Part shown: in pieces, positions 13,296-63,572 of the stretch
Position numbering within the stretch: the first letter of the stretch is position 1
How the letters are laid out: the number at the start of each line of letters is the position of its first letter
Assembly (NCBI GenBank): GCA_000770645.1
Contig: JQID01000071.1
Location: forward strand, 46,905 to 110,904
Direction of reading: 5' to 3'
Source of the DNA: Desulfosporosinus sp. Tol-M
Lineage (GTDB): Bacteria; Bacillota; Desulfitobacteriia; Desulfitobacteriales; Desulfitobacteriaceae
DNA: 64,000 nt
Made by a program: the position numbers and the translations under genes
The notes under the pieces: generated by a model
What the model was told of the DNA's origin: nothing
Seen by the model: the letters and a program-made list of their open reading frames with translations, nothing else
Database searches by the model: none

Positions 13296-13462
13296 AGTTC
13301 CTCCGTTAATCGCTATCTTCTGATTATACCAAAATTCAGTGGTGAAATAAAAATTTTCTATCTCTTTAAACTAAGTTTCTTCCAAAAACTGTGATTCGGA
13401 TCATTGCAATTGCGTCCGACTATTGAGATAATTATCCTAAAATGATAGAGAGGAAAGTGGCT

Positions 13463-14446
13463 ATGGCTAAGAACTATCAAGTTATGTCCAACGGCACTTT
13501 TTTGATCAAAGCCCCGGTTCAGGCCCTGGAGAACGAACTGGCTAAACAAGGCGCAGCCAAACGCCAGGCATTGGATTGTTTTATCCTGGCGGAAGAATTA
13601 TCTTACGCCAATCAAAATGCCGAGGCTGGCGAAGCATATGAAAAATCGATAGGCATCTTCCCCTCGATGTCCGCCTTCCTTAACCGGGGAAATGTTTTAT
13701 TTATTTCAGGCAGGATCGTTGAGGCTCATCAAAGTTACTTCCATGGCCAAGCTCTAGCTGAAAAGAAGCAAAATAAGTGGTTTGAGAGTGCTTTTATAAG
13801 TAACATAGGCCATCTTTACTATTCTGAAGGAAATTCAGATAAAGCCATAGAGTATTTTAATCAGGCTCTGCCAATCCTTAAAGAAACATGGGAAACTAAG
13901 GAAGTCACTGCCATACTGCTGGGTATTCTCCAGAAAATGGAGGGTATCTACAACCAGCAGAAAGACCTGGCTCTAGCCATAGAATGTCTTCAGCAGGCGC
14001 TGTTACTTTTCCGAGAAACTGGCGGGCATTCAGGAACAGCTAAGTGTCTGAACAACCTCGGGCTGATCCTTGTGACCAGGAAAGAATATGATCAAGCCTT
14101 GGATTCTTTCCGAGAGGCATTGGCCATTTTCAGGAAACTCGGTTCTCGAGCAAATGAAGCCGAACAACTGGGCAACCTTGGTTCGGTTTATCGAGATCTC
14201 GCGAAAAATGACTTGGCTTTGGAGCACTACAGTGAATCCTTGGCTATATTTAAGGAAATAGGTCACGAGTTGGGCATCGCTAACCAAATTGGTAACATTG
14301 GTTACATATTGTTTAAGGAAGGTGATTATTATTCCGCCCTAACCTATTTCCAGCAGGCGGAAAAACTATATTTGAAGTTGGGGGTTGCTTCGCGCGCTGA
14401 AATGACCAGAAAGAACATCGATAATCTGGTAACCATCATGCTATAA
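13463..14446 (+). CDS. Tetratricopeptide repeat protein
   Basis: Multiple TPR-like repeats (AKCLNNLGLILVTRKEYDQALDSFREALAIFRKLG etc.). Confidence 0.88.
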   Translation: MAKNYQVMSNGTFLIKAPVQALENELAKQGAAKRQALDCFILAEELSYANQNAEAGEAYEKSIGIFPSMSAFLNRGNVLFISGRIVEAHQSYFHGQALAEKKQNKWFESAFISNIGHLYYSEGNSDKAIEYFNQALPILKETWETKEVTAILLGILQKMEGIYNQQKDLALAIECLQQALLLFRETGGHSGTAKCLNNLGLILVTRKEYDQALDSFREALAIFRKLGSRANEAEQLGNLGSVYRDLAKNDLALEHYSESLAIFKEIGHELGIANQIGNIGYILFKEGDYYSALTYFQQAEKLYLKLGVASRAEMTRKNIDNLVTIML

Positions 14447-14460
14447 AGGAGGGATTGTTT

Positions 14461-15387
14461 TTGCAAGGCCTGGAACTGGCTGAAAAATATTATAATCACT
14501 ATGGGAGACCCCTGATCCTCGAAAAGTTTAATGTGTATGAAAGCAGGATCGCCGCTGGCTTGGTCGGTGACGGCTCAGAATGTTATGGGTTTGATGATGA
14601 GTTTTCCAGGGACCATGACTGGGGACCGTCGTTTTGCCTTTGGCTTACTAATCAAGCTTACCAGCTCATCGGAACTGCACTCCAGGCGGAGATTGACAAG
14701 CTTCCTCAGGATTTTGCCGGGTACGGCCCGCGGCAGGTGAGTGCGTACGGTGATAAAAGGGTTGGCATTTTTGAAACAGGCCGTTTTTATCATCACTTTA
14801 TCGGACTTGATCGACCTCCGGCAAGCTTGGAGGAGTGGCTCCGGCTCCCGGAGGACACGCTGGCAGTCTGTACAAATGGCAAGGTGTTTTATGACCCGCT
14901 AGGCGAGTTTACCAAGTTTAGAAATGCCCTCAAGGAATTTTACCCTGAAGACGTAAGGTTAAAAAAGATTGCTGCCCGCTGCATGACCATTGCCCAGTTC
15001 GGTCAGTATAATTTTAAGCGTTGTGTCAAGAGACAGGAATATGTAGCTGCCGGTTATGCTCAAGCTAAGTTTTGCTCTGATGTGATCTCAATGGTATTTT
15101 TACTGAATAGGGTATACAAGCCTTTTTTTAAATGGATGCACAGAGCGATGCGTGGTCTGCCCATCTTGGGGGAATATGTTTATACGGCAGTAAATGACCT
15201 TGTTACCACACCCGATTACGATCAGAAGTATTCCTTGATTGAAGATATCTGCACCGCTATTAGAAGAGAGTTTCAGTACCAGGGTTTGAGCGATTCAGCA
15301 AGTGATTTCTTGCTTGACCATGGTCCGGTCATTCAGCAAAAGATCCAAAATCCCAATTTGCGTGCCCGAAATATATTAGTGGGATGA
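14461..15387 (+). CDS. DUF4037 domain-containing protein
   Basis: DGSECYGFDDEFSRDHDWGPSFCLWL motif (nucleotidyltransferase-like); likely TTG start at 14461 after AAAGGAGGG. Confidence 0.8.
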   Translation: MQGLELAEKYYNHYGRPLILEKFNVYESRIAAGLVGDGSECYGFDDEFSRDHDWGPSFCLWLTNQAYQLIGTALQAEIDKLPQDFAGYGPRQVSAYGDKRVGIFETGRFYHHFIGLDRPPASLEEWLRLPEDTLAVCTNGKVFYDPLGEFTKFRNALKEFYPEDVRLKKIAARCMTIAQFGQYNFKRCVKRQEYVAAGYAQAKFCSDVISMVFLLNRVYKPFFKWMHRAMRGLPILGEYVYTAVNDLVTTPDYDQKYSLIEDICTAIRREFQYQGLSDSASDFLLDHGPVIQQKIQNPNLRARNILVG

Positions 15388-15482
15388 AACATCCATTAAG
15401 GCAAAGCCTCCTCGTTCCAATCGGACAGGGGGGCTTAAATGTATTCAAGACCCCTTCCGAATCCCAGAAAGGAGATGCCTAC

Positions 15483-16664
15483 ATGCATAATAAGCCTTTA
15501 TCATATGTACCAACGAATAAAGTCCCTGTGCCTCGGCCTTCTCCCTATACTCCCCTGGTTGATGATCCGTGTGATAGTGTGACTGGATGGACAGTTACCG
15601 GTACGGTAGACCTTTCCAGGGGAAAGTTTAGGTTGTCCGGGGCAAATGCTGGAATTCACCGTGCGTTAACCTTTCCCTCGCAAATACCCTTTCTTCTTTC
15701 TGCCGATGTCTATTTAACCTATGCATCAACTACTATATCAGCTTTGAAACTTACTAACTGTTCGGATATCCCGATTGTCTCTCTTGGCGTACAAACTTTT
15801 GGTAAGAATCGATTATCCCTTAATACACCCGCCGGAGGAAATCAACGTCCAATATCTTTTATCGCCACTGGTGGAATTAGAGTTTATCTGTTATTTGATC
15901 CAATTTACAATATTGCCAGAGGTTGGTTTAGTGATATCGATGGATTTCATTATATAGGAGAGGTTGCAACTGTTGGAAGTCCAGCCTATTTTGGTATAAA
16001 TGTTGGCCCGGAAGCTCTGAACGATATGTTGCTGGATGACATAATCGTTACGCCAATGTATGCGGTATGCATGGGGGATAGCAGGGTTGAAGGATTTCCC
16101 GGCCATAGTCCCTGGCCTGGGATGTACGGCAGGTATGATGATCCAACTTATTCGGTATCGTATAATCTGTACAAGATTATTGGAGCGTATGTGGTAAATG
16201 CAGGGCAGAATGGGTTTGATTCCACTCAAAATAGAAATAGATTTACTGATCATGTCGTTAAATTTAAACCTAAAGTTGTAATACTTAGTTCATCAAATTT
16301 TGGGACTGAAGATATTGCAACATTTACAAGTAATTATGACTACATGGCAAATTTAGCCACTACAAATGGCATTAAGGTACTATTTGTCGAGCTGCCTCCT
16401 TGTGAAGCAACTCTTACCGATCGATACTTGGCGTACAATACCTGGCTTGATGCTTATTGCAAGAAAAAGGGTTATCCTTTGGTAAAGATATATGATCTGT
16501 TAAGCAATGGGGCGGATGAGTTAGCGGCTCCTTATAATTCCGGAGATGATGTACATCTAACAAATAAAGGGTATCAATATATTGCTCAATTAATTAGCGA
16601 AGTTCTATCAGAATTGCTATTCGTGCAACCAGAATGCTCGGGTACTATCAATACCCTTTTTTAA
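15483..16664 (+). CDS. SGNH/GDSL hydrolase-like protein with N-terminal beta-rich domain
   Basis: VCMGDSRVEG (GDS) and C-terminal GDDVHLTNKGYQYIA (DxxH) blocks; AAAGGAG RBS before ATG 15483. Confidence 0.7.
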   Translation: MHNKPLSYVPTNKVPVPRPSPYTPLVDDPCDSVTGWTVTGTVDLSRGKFRLSGANAGIHRALTFPSQIPFLLSADVYLTYASTTISALKLTNCSDIPIVSLGVQTFGKNRLSLNTPAGGNQRPISFIATGGIRVYLLFDPIYNIARGWFSDIDGFHYIGEVATVGSPAYFGINVGPEALNDMLLDDIIVTPMYAVCMGDSRVEGFPGHSPWPGMYGRYDDPTYSVSYNLYKIIGAYVVNAGQNGFDSTQNRNRFTDHVVKFKPKVVILSSSNFGTEDIATFTSNYDYMANLATTNGIKVLFVELPPCEATLTDRYLAYNTWLDAYCKKKGYPLVKIYDLLSNGADELAAPYNSGDDVHLTNKGYQYIAQLISEVLSELLFVQPECSGTINTLF

Positions 16665-16847: not shown

Positions 16848-17495
16848 ATGAGTGAAGTAGGACATGTATTAAACTGTAGTGTAGCATTAGCATATGGTAA
16901 AAAGATAGTACCAGGAAATAATATCGATAATCATTTAATTATTCGAAAATCTTTGGTAAAAATTCTAGCAAATAGGGAGAATACTCAATGTAATGCAGTA
17001 GTACCAATTCCGAATGCGGGCATATACCTAGGGAAATGTTGGGCAGAATTAACCGGACTATACCTTTGGAATAGCTTTTCAAGGCATAATTTAAATACAT
17101 CGATGTTCTTACTTTCAGATCAACTTAAGAGAGAAAGAGCAGCTGAATATAAACTAGGAAAAATATTTACTAAAAAAGGGTTTTCTTCCGTTATCTTAAT
17201 AGATGAAGCCATAACTAGCGGGATTTCGATGTATAGGGCAATCAAAACGTTAAGGGAAATTGGAGTTCGTAATATTCATGCGCGAACAGTACTGCCTCCT
17301 ATTCTTCCACAATTATGTTACGAAAATGTAATAAAATATAAAGCGGGTAATGGTCTTGAAAAAGACTGGATAAATCGGCCAAATGATTATGAATTAATTG
17401 CCTGGTGCATCGGGGCTAATGATTTTTCCACCTTAGATGTAGAGGATGTAAAGACCGTATGTGGGACTGTTTGTGTGACATGTATAAATTATTAG
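16848..17495 (+). CDS. Phosphoribosyltransferase-like protein resembling the PurF PRTase domain, without the glutaminase domain
   Basis: PRPP loop VILIDEAITSGIS; VVPIPNAG...LKRERAAEYKLGKIF...NIHARTVLPPI resembles PurF C-terminal half; Cys pair near C-terminus. Confidence 0.65.
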   Translation: MSEVGHVLNCSVALAYGKKIVPGNNIDNHLIIRKSLVKILANRENTQCNAVVPIPNAGIYLGKCWAELTGLYLWNSFSRHNLNTSMFLLSDQLKRERAAEYKLGKIFTKKGFSSVILIDEAITSGISMYRAIKTLREIGVRNIHARTVLPPILPQLCYENVIKYKAGNGLEKDWINRPNDYELIAWCIGANDFSTLDVEDVKTVCGTVCVTCINY

Positions 17496-17591
17496 TCTTA
17501 GTTATTTCGTAATATAATTTTATAAAAAAAATTAAGATTATTCTTAAAATAAAGCTTATGTATTAAATAAGAGGAATTAAGGGTGTTAAAT

Positions 17592-18086
17592 ATGAAAAAG
17601 AATGTTTTTGTTATTGGTGATCTTGTAGTTGATCACACCATTTTTGCTAGAAGTAAAGCTTTGCGTCCTCATTTGCAAATTGATGCCCAGGAACAAATTT
17701 ATGAAATAAAACGAAGACAACTTACTGCCGGAGGTGCCGCTAATACAGCAAGAATTCTTGCAGTGGTAAATGAGGGTAATACTTTTCTTTGGGGAATAAT
17801 TGGTAAGACACCTGTAAATAGTTTTAGGTCTATTCTGAATGACAGTACTACCTTTGACAATTCTTATAAGGTAATTGAATTCTATGGCGTACAAGATGAA
17901 ACAGATGCCCCTATGCATACAATAAATAGGATTATTTCAAATAATGATAATACTTTTAGACACCCCGTCCGTTTTGATGATTATGGAGATATTCATATAA
18001 CGAAGGAGAAACATGAAACAGTTATTTCTTCCCTTAATCATGTACACAAAGAACAAGAACATATGATTGATTCAATTTATAATTAA
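17592..18086 (+). CDS. N-terminal part of PfkB/RfaE-like sugar kinase, interrupted by a frameshift
   Basis: VFVIGDLVVDHTIF and LTAGGAANTARILA motifs of PfkB kinases; stops mid-domain with continuation in the +1 frame. Confidence 0.65.
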   Translation: MKKNVFVIGDLVVDHTIFARSKALRPHLQIDAQEQIYEIKRRQLTAGGAANTARILAVVNEGNTFLWGIIGKTPVNSFRSILNDSTTFDNSYKVIEFYGVQDETDAPMHTINRIISNNDNTFRHPVRFDDYGDIHITKEKHETVISSLNHVHKEQEHMIDSIYN

Positions 18087-19545
18087 TGATTTAGATTTCC
18101 TATGCATTAATGAAGAAATTATTAAAAAAATTGCTAAATTTGCAAAAGATTATAAAATACCCCTTATTGTAGACCCTAAACGAAATCGAATTAAATATAA
18201 TAATATCAAGGCAACAATGATATTACCTAACCTATATGAGTGGTGCCATCTTATTAATGAACCAGATAGAGAGAAACATTGGAGAGATCAGCTGGACAAT
18301 AAAGAAGTTCTAGTCGAAATGGCTCAGAGGTCACTATATTATTTAGGTAACTTCACTTATCACATAATAAAGTGTGACAAAGATGGGATAATAGCAATTA
18401 CTCCTTCCGCAGTTGATAAGAATATATATAATATTTACCGGATGCCTCCCTGCGTCACTCAAAATTCGCATCAGCAATTAGGGTGTGGTGATGTAATTAC
18501 CGGTATTATGGCAATATCTATCGATAAAAATTCGGAGTCAAAACAAGTTTTAGACGCCTTAAACTACGCAAACTGTGTTGTAGCTGCTTATCGTGAGCAA
18601 CCTTGGTTAAAGATGCCCACTCTAAAGGATATTAATGAAAAGCTAAAAAATGCAAACTCCAAAAAGTGGCAAGAGCCCAAGGGTTCATTGACAAAAGGTA
18701 TTACGTACCTTCCTAAAGAAAATGAGATAAAATTATCTGATTTTAAAACAATAGTCCCTGAATTATATTCAAATAATCGAAACTTTAAAAATGTTATTAT
18801 AGATTTACTCATTGAAGATATTGAAAAAGGCAATAGCGGAAAAATACATAGTATTATCTTGGATGGCCCCGCTGGTTGTGGAAAAAGTAGCTTAATGCAA
18901 TATATCATCTCTAAGAATAAAGAAGAGTCAATTACGTTTTCAGTAGATTTTTCCGATGAATTATTGAACTGTGATCTTAATAATTTAGAGATTTATTTCT
19001 CTGATTTAAGAAAAAAGTATAACATAGGTGAAAACAGAATCTTATTACTGATTGTAGACGAAGCACTGAAAAAAAAGAAAAACATTAAGAACGGTAAATC
19101 ATTCATTGAAGAACACGGTGTTAATATTCTTAATGCAGCACATAAACAAAATATTAGATTTCTATTAATCGATGCAACTTTTAATGAAAAGTATTACTTA
19201 ATATCAAACGAAGTAAAATCGCGATGCAAAAAATATGCTTTACCAGCATTAAAAAATCGTCCCGGAGATGTTCCTATTATTGTTGCAGGTATTTTAAGGG
19301 ATTTGAGTAAGTCTAGATCCATTGAAATTAAAATTGATAAAAGTGTAATCCTAGCCTTTATTAATAAATTATTAAAAGAAAAAGAATTTAGTCCACGAGA
19401 AATTGTGAGCAATTTAACTACAATTTTTAATAAAGACTATACACAGGATATAAAAGTGTTAGAAGTTAAGTTCGACTCTCTCCCAAATGAGTATAAAAAT
19501 TTGGAGCAGAAATTTTTCTTAAACGATATGTATAATATTAAGTAA
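18067..19545 (+). CDS. C-terminal part of PfkB-like kinase fused to a P-loop ATPase domain
   Basis: IPLIVDPKRNRIKY...PNLYEW and GCGDVITGIMA are PfkB C-terminal motifs; followed by Walker A DGPAGCGKSS and NRPGDVPIIVAGIL resembling sigma54-activator AAA domains. Confidence 0.65.
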   Translation: MIQFIINDLDFLCINEEIIKKIAKFAKDYKIPLIVDPKRNRIKYNNIKATMILPNLYEWCHLINEPDREKHWRDQLDNKEVLVEMAQRSLYYLGNFTYHIIKCDKDGIIAITPSAVDKNIYNIYRMPPCVTQNSHQQLGCGDVITGIMAISIDKNSESKQVLDALNYANCVVAAYREQPWLKMPTLKDINEKLKNANSKKWQEPKGSLTKGITYLPKENEIKLSDFKTIVPELYSNNRNFKNVIIDLLIEDIEKGNSGKIHSIILDGPAGCGKSSLMQYIISKNKEESITFSVDFSDELLNCDLNNLEIYFSDLRKKYNIGENRILLLIVDEALKKKKNIKNGKSFIEEHGVNILNAAHKQNIRFLLIDATFNEKYYLISNEVKSRCKKYALPALKNRPGDVPIIVAGILRDLSKSRSIEIKIDKSVILAFINKLLKEKEFSPREIVSNLTTIFNKDYTQDIKVLEVKFDSLPNEYKNLEQKFFLNDMYNIK

Positions 19546-19728
19546 GAACACTTATTATTTAGTAAGTAACGTAAGCATGGGAATTTTCGACGGTTTAAGG
19601 TGTCAAACTCGAGCCTGAGTGAAACCCGCGGCTTCCATAGGACTAAATAAAAAGAGATATACCTACGAATAAATCGTAAACATACCTCAAAGTCTACGTC
19701 AAAACCATTGTTGGCTTAAAAATACATA

Positions 19729-19803
19729 TGGAGCGGACGACGAGATTCGAACTCGCGATCCTCGGCTTGGGAAGCCAATGCTCTACCGCTGAGCCACGTC
19801 CGC
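19729..19803 (-). tRNA. tRNA-Gly(TCC)
   Basis: Reverse complement GCGGACGTGGCTCAGCGGTAGAGCATTGGCTTCCCAAGCC...GTCCGCTCCA folds as cloverleaf with TCC anticodon. Confidence 0.95.
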
Positions 19804-19857
19804 ATGCTATAACAAACTCATTTTAGACAAGCTTCACCTATTCGTCAAGGCAATACC

Positions 19858-19933
<76 letters not shown>

Positions 19934-19936
19934 ATA

Positions 19937-20039
19937 GTGAACTCGTTCAGCTTAAGCTGAACATCGCAACTTCAGATGGGGACTCTACCCCACCTGAAGT
20001 TGCGAAGAACCCACCCCCACTTATAGAAGTGGGGGTCTT
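19937..20039 (+). repeat. Miniature hairpin-rich element, copy 1 (IS200/IS605- or HEARO-like)
   Basis: gtgaactcgttcagcttaagctgaacatcg (18-bp palindrome 19945-19962), a gcaacttcag/ctgaagttgc hairpin, and cccccactt-atag-aagtggggg (20014-20035). Confidence 0.6.
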
Positions 20040-20167
20040 GAAAACTTGATCAATCTTTGCTGTTCGTGAAATGCTCTAGCCAGCTGCTACGATATAGCTG
20101 TGTTTCTTGGTCGCGAAAGTAATTTTACCATGAATGAATTTAAACCGTCAAGTGTTTTTTAACTGAT

Positions 20168-21508
<1,341 letters not shown>

Positions 21509-33422: not shown

Positions 33423-33520
33423 TGGCGGGGATGCGTGCGAATCGAACACACCTCGGAACGTTCTGCGTCCCGACACGCGGATTTGAAGTCCGGGAGCAGC
33501 ACCAGCCACCATCCATCCCC
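33423..33520 (-). tRNA. selC: tRNA-Sec(TCA)
   Basis: 98 nt; GGGGATGGATGGTGGCTGGTGCTGCTCCCGGACTTCAAATCCG...GCATCCCCGCCA with TCA anticodon and long variable arm. Confidence 0.95.
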
Positions 33521-33721
33521 ATTATCGACCATTATATTAACACATTCATTGTTATTATGGAAGCAAATCTTTGGATTAAAAGAACTTTTCCATAAATTAA
33601 CGTTTTGTCATTAAGTGTAAACGATAATTTCTTGCGCCCAATACGCGCAAAGTATTCCTTTGGGATTAGCGGCTTTGGTGCTACCCTCCCCCGAAGACTA
33701 TCGTATCTGAAACCCAGATGT

Positions 33722-35626
33722 TCAGCTTGAGTTAAATAATCTTCTTTTATCTCCATTTCGCTTTGTTATCTTCTGATTATCAAAGAACTCAAGCAGCGGC
33801 ACTGTATACTTCCTTGAAGTTCCCCACATTTCACGCACCTCAGAAACACCTATTTCTCCATGTTCTTTAAGAAACCCGACCAAACGTTCTTTAGCTGGTT
33901 CCAGATCTTTTTGTCTAAAGAAAAACTGATCAATGTGTACCCATTCTCCAATTTCGCACATGTACTGGGCATACTCCGGAGCTTCGGACTTCGAAATACC
34001 ACATGCTTCTGCGGTTGCAGTGATGTCGGGTGGCATTAGTCCAGCAATTTGCCATTTTGCACGTAAGGCTTCCAATCGTTTTAAAATACCTGTTGGAATT
34101 TCCACACCTTCGTTTGTTCGAACTTTGCTTCCTGAAATGCGATAATACCCTCGCACAGCGCCTTGTTCCAGAATCGTTTGCCAACGACGATGTGCCCAGG
34201 AAATCCCTAGCCGAGTCTTTAATTCCTCTCTGCTAATTCCAACGCGCAGGGGATTTGACCTTTCATACGCTCTTATCATGTTAATCAATTTTGACCGCCA
34301 GATCTCTGCCGCTGCTTTTCCCCAGTAGAGCAGGTTTTCATCTTCCTGCCAAATTTCCAGTCGACCGGCTTTCTCCAGCGCTTTTAAACTCACCTCTAAT
34401 TCATTAGAAGTGATCTGTAACCGTGATGCCAAATCTGATCCTGTTCGTAGTTCGGCCATTTCTCCTTCTAAGAGGTCTAGCGGATCGCCTTGGTCTTTCA
34501 TCATCATCTGTGCTATTACGTTTTCTTTATAGCGCTTCTGTTTGAACTCCGCTACTCCGAGTATTTTTCCACCTGCAATGGTATGGGCGGGGGAATAAAA
34601 GCGGAGCACAAAACGATCCCCTGATGCTGCAACCACCGATTCTTCCAAAAGAATTTGCGCAAATCCCTCTTGTCCAGGGGTTATTTCATTCTGTTCCAAA
34701 AGATGTATTCGTCCGAGGATCTCCGTAGTTCCGAGGTGGAACCGGACCCGTTGCCTTTGGGTTAAAGGTCTATCTGCCGAGGAGAGGTTTAAGAGCAATA
34801 CGTCCAAGATTTTACCGACTTTGAAAACGTTTGGTATTACGAGTACTGAACCCCGTTCCACTTCTGCAACATCTACCCCTGCGAGGTTAACCGCTACCCG
34901 CTGTCCCGCCTCAGCAGCACTTACTTTGTTATTGTGTACTTGGAGAGAACGAACTTTTGCGAGAATATGCCCCGGTTCTATCGCCAACTCTTGGCCCAGT
35001 AGTATTGTCCCACTATGAAGACTTCCGGTCATAACGGTACCAAAGCCCTGGATGCTAAAGACCCTGTCAATTGGCATTCGAACCGGACCGGTAGACTTTT
35101 TACTTTCCACTTCTGAAAGCAATCCATCAATGGTTTGACGCAAACCGGGAATTCCTACACCGGTTAGAGCTGAAACCCGGCAAATTGGCGCATCTTTAAA
35201 AGCCGTTTCTTTCAATTCCTCACGTATCTCTTCTTCCATCAGATCAAGCCACTCTTCATCCACCAGGTCCGCCTTATTTAGAACAACAATCCCTCTAGGT
35301 ATACGGAGCAAGGTTAGTATATCCAAATGTTCTTGGGTCTGAGGCATAATCCCTTCATCGGCTGCGATAACAAGTAACACTATATCCATGCCACCGGCAC
35401 CAGCCAACATTTGACGTACAAACCGTTCATGTCCTGGAACATCCACAATACCAATTTGACGTCCACTGGGCAGCATCATATGGGCGAATCCAAGTTCGAT
35501 GGAGATCCCGCGTTGTTTCTCTTCTTTTAATCGATCCGTCTCCATACCGGAAAGAGCCCTGATCAACTCGGTTTTGCCGTGATCCACATGCCCGGCGGTT
35601 CCTACTAAATAGTGTCGTTCAGCCAT
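33722..35626 (-). CDS. selB: Selenocysteine-specific elongation factor
   Basis: [19 protein letters not shown] GTPase and C-terminal winged-helix repeats; next to selC. Confidence 0.97.
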
Positions 35627-62105: not shown

Positions 62106-62192
62106 GGAGGAGTACCCAAGTGGTGAAGGGGTCGCACTCGAAATGCGATAGGTCGGCAACGGCGCGTGGGTTCAACCCCCACCTCCTCCGCC
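62106..62192 (+). tRNA. tRNA-Ser(CGA)
   Basis: GGAGGAGTACCCAAGTGGTGAAGGGGTCGCACTCGAAATGCGA...CCTCCTCCGCCA. Confidence 0.95.
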
Positions 62193-62207
62193 ATGGAGCT
62201 GTTAATT

Positions 62208-63572
62208 TCAAAGATTAACAGCTTCTACCTTTTTAAGCGGCAAAGACTTCTGAATGATCTTAGCCGTTTTTTTCTTGGACTGATATTCCAGATGGCCATA
62301 GGTATTGACCGTTGTCCGGATGTCGCTATGACCAACCCAATCTCTGATACGCTCCATAGGCACTTCATTGGCCATCATCAAGCCTACGCACGAATGTCTC
62401 AGATCATGGAATCGAACATGGGGCAATCCGGCTTTTTTGAGCAAATCAGCATGCCTGTTGGTGATATATCCTGGGTCGATGATTTCCCCCAAGGGATGGA
62501 CGCAAAGATATCCAAGCCATTCATTGCTGTATGAGCTGCCGCAAAGCTTTCTCAGTTCCTTATTCTCAGCTATTTTTGCTTTTATCCTATCCTCGACATA
62601 AGGAATCAAGGGGTAGGTACGGTTGCTCAAATCCGTTTTGAGCTTATCGGATGGGATATATATTTTCTTCTTATCAATCACTGCTGTCGTTACGGTGTGA
62701 TTCGCCCGAAAGAATTTGTGCTGAAAATCAAATTGCGATTCTCTGGTGCCAACACACTCACTGCGTCGCATCCCATAAAAGCCGCCGAGCAATATAGGGA
62801 TTTCAATAATATCTCCGACAATAAATTCGAGATAATACTGCATCTGTTCGGCATTGAGCGTCGCCGCATTATATTTCTCGATTTTGTGTAAGGTGATTGC
62901 GCTGTTTGGATTCACGCTGATCATCTTTTTGCTGACGGCATAATTCAATACCTGGTTGATAACGGTGTAATCCTTGGCAACTGTAGCCTTCTTCTTGCCG
63001 TGTTTCAGCCGATAAGCGTAATGTCCCTTGAGCAGATCGGGCGTAATTTCCCGGACCGTGCATCCATAAGCCTTGAATGTCGGATATAGGTTTTGCTTTA
63101 TGTTGTCTGCATATCCGGCCCAGGTATTGAGCTTGATTGTTCTGTCAAAATTAAAATCTTCACCCACCACAATATTATCCGGGTGTCTGAATGCCAGCCA
63201 TTCGTTTAATAAATCCGCGAACAAAGGATTTGCGGAATGGTTTTCATCGGAATCATCATGAACAATGCTCTTTTCAGGCACTTCATGCGCAAACGTCTTC
63301 TCCGCTATACCATTTTTCAGGTCAAGCGAATATTGGATTCTGGTTGATAAGCATTTACTTTCGGCTTCTGCTTCATTTTCTTCGATTGCAGAAAGCCCTG
63401 TTGAAATCCAAAGGGGCTTGCGCTTACCGTTCTGATCTTTTCGATTGAGAACGATGTAATAATATCCTTTCTTTGGTGTTATGAAGCCTCCAATCAGTTC
63501 ATCCTCGGTCAATCTGACCATTTTCAGCATTTGAGTGAGTTCCATATGGTTCCTCCTTTCAAATTTATTCAC
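62208..63572 (-). CDS. Tyrosine recombinase/site-specific integrase
   Basis: Catalytic motifs GGFYGMRRSE, HDLRHSCVGLMMANEV, GHSDIRTTVNTYGH; ends 15 bp from tRNA-Ser(CGA). Confidence 0.95.
   Translation of the reverse strand: MNKFERRNHMELTQMLKMVRLTEDELIGGFITPKKGYYYIVLNRKDQNGKRKPLWISTGLSAIEENEAEAESKCLSTRIQYSLDLKNGIAEKTFAHEVPEKSIVHDDSDENHSANPLFADLLNEWLAFRHPDNIVVGEDFNFDRTIKLNTWAGYADNIKQNLYPTFKAYGCTVREITPDLLKGHYAYRLKHGKKKATVAKDYTVINQVLNYAVSKKMISVNPNSAITLHKIEKYNAATLNAEQMQYYLEFIVGDIIEIPILLGGFYGMRRSECVGTRESQFDFQHKFFRANHTVTTAVIDKKKIYIPSDKLKTDLSNRTYPLIPYVEDRIKAKIAENKELRKLCGSSYSNEWLGYLCVHPLGEIIDPGYITNRHADLLKKAGLPHVRFHDLRHSCVGLMMANEVPMERIRDWVGHSDIRTTVNTYGHLEYQSKKKTAKIIQKSLPLKKVEAVNL

Follow-up and report, generated by a model that had tools for sequence, protein, structure and literature searches.

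What do a short phosphoribosyltransferase (PRTase) gene and the split kinase-ATPase gene that follows it encode, and do the two form a functional unit? The pair lies in a window of 64,000 nucleotides, the whole stretch of DNA that was analyzed, on contig C164 of a 3.0-Mb draft genome (G000; completeness 98.85%, contamination 8.27%). The housekeeping genes of the window round the unit (purA, dnaB, gyrA/B and others), which were named from their own sequences, are ordinary. The preliminary description had proposed two adjacent units on the same strand, and the list of open reading frames agrees: three ORFs, all on the plus strand, occupy positions 16848–17495 (alternative start 16842), 17583–18086 (alternative start 17592) and 18067–19545. 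ORF1 begins with the ATG at 16848, which is preceded by a GGAG ribosome site, and a gap of 96 bp on the same strand separates it from the kinase-AAA+ gene. No terminator was found between the two genes, and a terminator-like hairpin, a consensus match only, lies before the pair (Table 1).

Table 1. Features of the two-gene unit and its flanks (positions in the window)
Feature	Position	Strand	Evidence
Terminator-like hairpin 3' of the upstream GDSL gene	16640..16656	+	consensus match only
ORF1, stand-alone PurF-type PRTase, 215 aa, without glutaminase domain	16848..17495	+	phmmer, alignment, model
Kinase gene, 5' half: N-terminal part of HldE/RfaE-type PfkB kinase, GGAANTA motif	17592..18086	+	rfaE_dom_I
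Overlap of both reading frames, place of the +1 frameshift; ORF2 stop TAA at 18084	18067..18086	+	
Kinase domain, 3' half, in the second frame: DPK, LPN, catalytic GCGD	18067..18690	+	rfaE_dom_I, motifs
C-terminal AAA+ domain: Walker A GPAGCGKS, Walker B LLLIVDEA, lid NRPGDVPII	18691..19545	+	
tRNA-Gly(ccc), its 3' side being the integrase site in congeners	19729..19803	-	

ORF1 had been described as the PRTase half of PurF without the glutaminase, carrying the PRPP loop VILIDEAITSGIS. The loop is present, and both phmmer (E=1.8e-10) and a Foldseek search with the AlphaFold model of ORF1 (E=2e-10) matched B. subtilis PurF (PDB 1ao0), the best 17 PDB matches of the model all being PurF. The model (pLDDT 70.8) was built on an alignment with 22 PurFs, and since this input favours PurF, its Foldseek matches are consistent with the assignment rather than independent of it. 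Among the family profiles, Pfam Pribosyltran gave a sub-threshold 21.7 bits (cut-off 26.3) and TIGR01134 (PurF) 15.8 bits, far under its cut-off of 350. In the alignment with the 22 PurFs, the start of ORF1 coincides with that of the PRTase half and its end lies just past the C-terminal CxxC; nothing is found upstream of the PRTase domain that would correspond to an N-terminal Ntn glutaminase with its catalytic Cys; and C9, C156, C208 and C211 (214-aa numbering) are invariant across all 22 sequences. From these boundaries and conserved cysteines it follows that ORF1 is a PurF catalytic half without glutaminase.

Compared with PurF of the B. subtilis type, a [4Fe-4S] protein (PDB 1ao0/1gph), ORF1 shares the PRTase fold, the PRPP loop, cysteines at each of the four cluster-ligand positions and the same C-terminal CxxC end, but has no N-terminal glutaminase, an identity of only ~26%, and altered PPi and flexible loops. 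In the alignment the four cysteines fall on the [4Fe-4S] ligand positions of Bacillus-type PurF, and they are candidate cluster ligands. We take their counterparts in B. subtilis PurF to be Cys236, Cys382, Cys437 and Cys440, respectively; the numbering of Cys236 and Cys382 agrees with the phmmer alignment of ORF1 to 1ao0. The PRPP loop reads DEAITSGIS where PurF has DDSIVRGTT, with the acidic D-E pair retained, the PPi loop has diverged (IPNAG for VPDSG), and the flexible loop is poorly conserved (RHNLNTSMF versus KNRYVGRTF). Because a normal PurF is encoded elsewhere in the same genome (contig C134), ORF1 is an extra copy and not the purine enzyme. ORF1 excepted, the PRTase matches listed for the order (74 genomes) are long open frames of PurF size (321–548 aa), and those in the phylum sample are mostly of 420–560 aa, with a few longer and one of 305 aa. 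Matches in plasmids, phages and genomes resemble PurF, the listed frames being mostly of 440–560 aa and the annotated plasmid records being purF. A scan of GTDB with a two-motif PRTase pattern returned one match, which was rejected as due to chance on the basis of its surrounding ORFs.

That the split ORFs behind ORF1 represent a single RfaE/PfkB-like kinase gene, as had been proposed, is borne out by the rfaE_dom_I profile, of which ORF2 covers positions 7–152 and ORF3 positions 156–296 as consecutive stretches. Read through with one 4-base step (TAAT at 18084), the gene specifies an unbroken 650-aa protein which matches the whole profile (E=1.6e-18). Its 66.9 bits against a curated cut-off of 345 place it outside the heptose-7-phosphate kinase equivalog, and by sequence it is a related PfkB kinase outside the HldE/RfaE equivalog. 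As in HldE/RfaE domain I, a heptose-7-phosphate kinase of the PfkB superfamily which it matches over its whole length, the GGAANTA (GG-A-N), DPK, LPN and catalytic GCGD (G-x-GD) motifs are retained, but DYxKG is lost, and the fusion partner is an AAA+ domain where HldE has an adenylyltransferase. The +1 frameshift must sit within 18067–18086, since a stop in this stretch immediately precedes the opening of the ORF3 frame. Other stops are absent over the 164 and 492 codons of the two frames (chance ~4e-7 and ~5e-20 at this DNA composition), so that the break is recent, a sequence error, or recoded. The kinase-AAA+ gene is therefore a candidate pseudogene unless the break stems from a sequence error or is recoded, and the two-gene unit is probably inactive in this genome, or working only under one of these two provisos.

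The P-loop domain said to be fused to the kinase was found as well: the motif DGPAGCGKSS is present and, in the read-through, belongs to the same gene, the AAA+ domain making up the C-terminal 285 residues. Walker A, Walker B and an AAA+ lid were all found as sequence motifs. The domain matched AAA_14 below the cut-off (E=1.2e-4), RarA at E=7e-5 (a match named from its sequence) and a phage clamp loader at E=8.5e-6, and its lid region matched sigma54 activators (EBPs, likewise named from sequence) at E=1.5e-4, the ntrC profile giving E=0.19. The suggested likeness to sigma54 activators is borne out only weakly: NRPGDVPIIVAGIL is present and the lid aligns with EBPs, but RarA and clamp loaders score at least as well. 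The domain shares Walker A, Walker B and a lid-like C-terminal part with both the RarA/clamp-loader and the NtrC/RtcR AAA+ proteins, but no GAFTGA loop occurs in the read-through sequence and no HTH family was matched in the second gene by profile searches. With both lacking, the label of sigma54 activator does not fit the domain, and this candidate was ruled out. Its clade placement is ambiguous: the lid appears weakly NtrC-like, and the likeness of the domain to RarA/clamp loaders is no smaller. A single-sequence model (pLDDT 38) was too poor to confirm the fold, and its Foldseek matches were set aside.

The two-gene unit looks horizontally acquired. Its GC content is 0.30–0.35 and its GC3 0.21–0.26, against means of 0.43 and 0.39 for the 44 other ORFs of the window, and the base composition is similar in both genes and distinct from most neighbours. 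A tRNA-Gly(ccc) gene lies 184 bp downstream. Congeners have kept the purA-tRNA array, and in several of them tyrosine integrases, whose identity was confirmed at four loci (L045, L046, L048 and L062), sit 126–176 bp behind tRNA-Gly, which marks this tRNA gene as an integration hotspot. No att repeat of the tRNA-Gly end was found within the window, and none of the window genes next to the pair, purA excepted, occurred in the 20 congener stretches examined, so that the site supports horizontal acquisition but delimits no element. Genes for a TPR protein, a DUF4037 protein and a GDSL hydrolase (13442–16664), upstream of the pair, were likewise not seen behind the congeners' purA-tRNA array.

Several other features of the tRNA genes were recorded. 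The congener array runs purA-tRNA-Lys-Glu-Phe-Gly (L043–L062), and the inserts that separate its tRNAs vary, genes for 589-aa proteins being one example; in the corresponding part of the window (19729–20168), neither tRNA-Lys nor tRNA-Glu turned up in the interval from purA to tRNA-Phe. On the minus strand, a terminator-like hairpin of 15 pairs (19654–19688) is so positioned that it would stop the tRNA transcript on the side of the pair. An Rfam scan of the window returned tRNAs only. A tyrosine integrase gene (62208–63572) ends directly behind tRNA-Ser(cga) (62106–62193), which suggests that a further integrated element extends past the end of the window, and a tRNA-SeC adjoins a gene for a SelB-like elongation factor (33722–35626) in the region 33423–35626.

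The preliminary description had envisaged a two-gene module as a candidate system, and the searches did not show it to be conserved: ~950 genomes, the plasmid and phage collections and the viral contigs yielded no relative of the kinase-AAA+ fusion. The whole-genome searches took in the organism's own class, a phylum sample and other classes, and an empty answer from them shows little where no positive control accompanies it. The remaining 82 genomes of the class gave no copy, nor did tblastn in plasmids and phages or blastn in E. coli genomes; fusion 8-mers were absent from GTDB contigs, exact 8-mers being a query which would miss distant relatives; and scans of IMG/VR with the PRTase, the fusion and motif patterns gave no homolog. 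We could not find the pairing of a PurF PRTase half with a kinase-AAA+ fusion anywhere else in the searched data. The linkage of the two genes thus rests on one locus, and having just this single known copy is what chiefly limits any claim about the function of the unit. No description of this architecture was found in the literature searched, in keeping with the earlier view that the kinase-ATPase fusion is uncharacterized.

We propose, tentatively, that the unit is a horizontally acquired accessory pair of genes in which a PurF-half PRTase and an AAA+-gated kinase make a modified ribose-phosphate compound, a reading which is possible and by no means assured. By its sequence, the stand-alone PRTase derives from the catalytic half of an Fe-S-type PurF and has kept the acidic PRPP-binding residues and the four cluster cysteines. 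It may add a nitrogen nucleophile to C1 of PRPP; as no glutaminase supplies ammonia, this would be ammonia itself, an amine or a base. The HldE-type PfkB kinase, in which the ATP/anion-hole motifs and the catalytic motifs are retained, would phosphorylate a sugar, a nucleoside or the PRTase product, and the AAA+ ATPase fused to it may gate or oligomerize the kinase on some cue, such that the compound would be made on demand and might serve defence, stress signalling or specialized metabolism. Each part has a well-founded chemistry; the scheme that links them is one that we infer. Quite doubtful in our view is the further step to an undescribed system in which an Fe-S PurF-derived PRTase and an AAA+-gated HldE-type kinase produce a ribose-phosphate signal or antimetabolite, possibly for phage defence and with redox state or oxygen read in through the Fe-S cluster.

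An anti-phage or conflict module is somewhat unlikely. By analogy with the signal proposed for the Ter system, a sensor AAA+/kinase would here act with a PRTase that makes a nucleotide-like alarm or depletes PRPP. PRTases of Ter systems have been proposed as makers of nucleotide signals (PMC7824862; PMC5512222), a PRTase is included among validated defence systems (PMC13092281), such systems often include AAA+ NTPases, and the pair is AT-rich foreign DNA by a tRNA site used by integrases in congeners. ORF1 shares with the Ter PRTases a presumed conflict or mobile context, but is of PurF lineage and not of the Ter families, and the pair has no HAD, ATP-grasp or TerD partners. Against a defence role, PADLOC, the one screen that bears on it, made no assignment (nothing matched ORF1, and the P-loop matches of the fusion were no more than marginal), the pair comes without toxin, nuclease or membrane effector, no defence genes were seen beside it, and no phage, plasmid or viral homolog was found. 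That the two are simply unrelated neighbours without a common function, as a single known locus would allow, is unlikely given that they lie on one strand across a 96-bp gap with no terminator found between them, alike in base composition and unlike most neighbours.

The frameshift bears on two other explanations. Transferred salvage or specialized-metabolism genes, a PRTase and a kinase, may now be in the course of loss, with no system in use: a frameshift breaks the kinase gene, whereas the window's long housekeeping genes have open frames, a normal PurF exists elsewhere in the genome, and the 82 further genomes of the class yielded no copy of the fusion. Such decay would have to be very recent, because the frames are otherwise open and ORF1 retains its cofactor cysteines, and we hold this account, too, to be on the unlikely side. 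Alternatively, the TAA stop (AAT TAA T) may be the site of programmed +1 frameshifting, which would give both a truncated kinase and the full kinase-AAA+ protein. The frames overlap by only 20 bases, and taking TAAT as one step restores a protein which matches HldE across the join, but neither a Shine-Dalgarno-like stimulator nor a known slippery motif was seen, no homolog shows the site to be conserved, and a single sequencing error or mutation is the simpler explanation; programmed recoding is very improbable.

The gene pair is real and unusual, and is a lead rather than a demonstrated system. As a single broken copy its value lies mainly in the precise search queries which it gives, namely a ~215-aa four-cysteine PRTase adjoining a ~650-aa HldE-kinase-AAA+ protein. 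If the fusion and the pairing recur elsewhere, they would represent a new way in which sugar-phosphate or nucleotide chemistry is coupled to an ATPase switch, as well as a case of the PurF catalytic half reused without its glutaminase.
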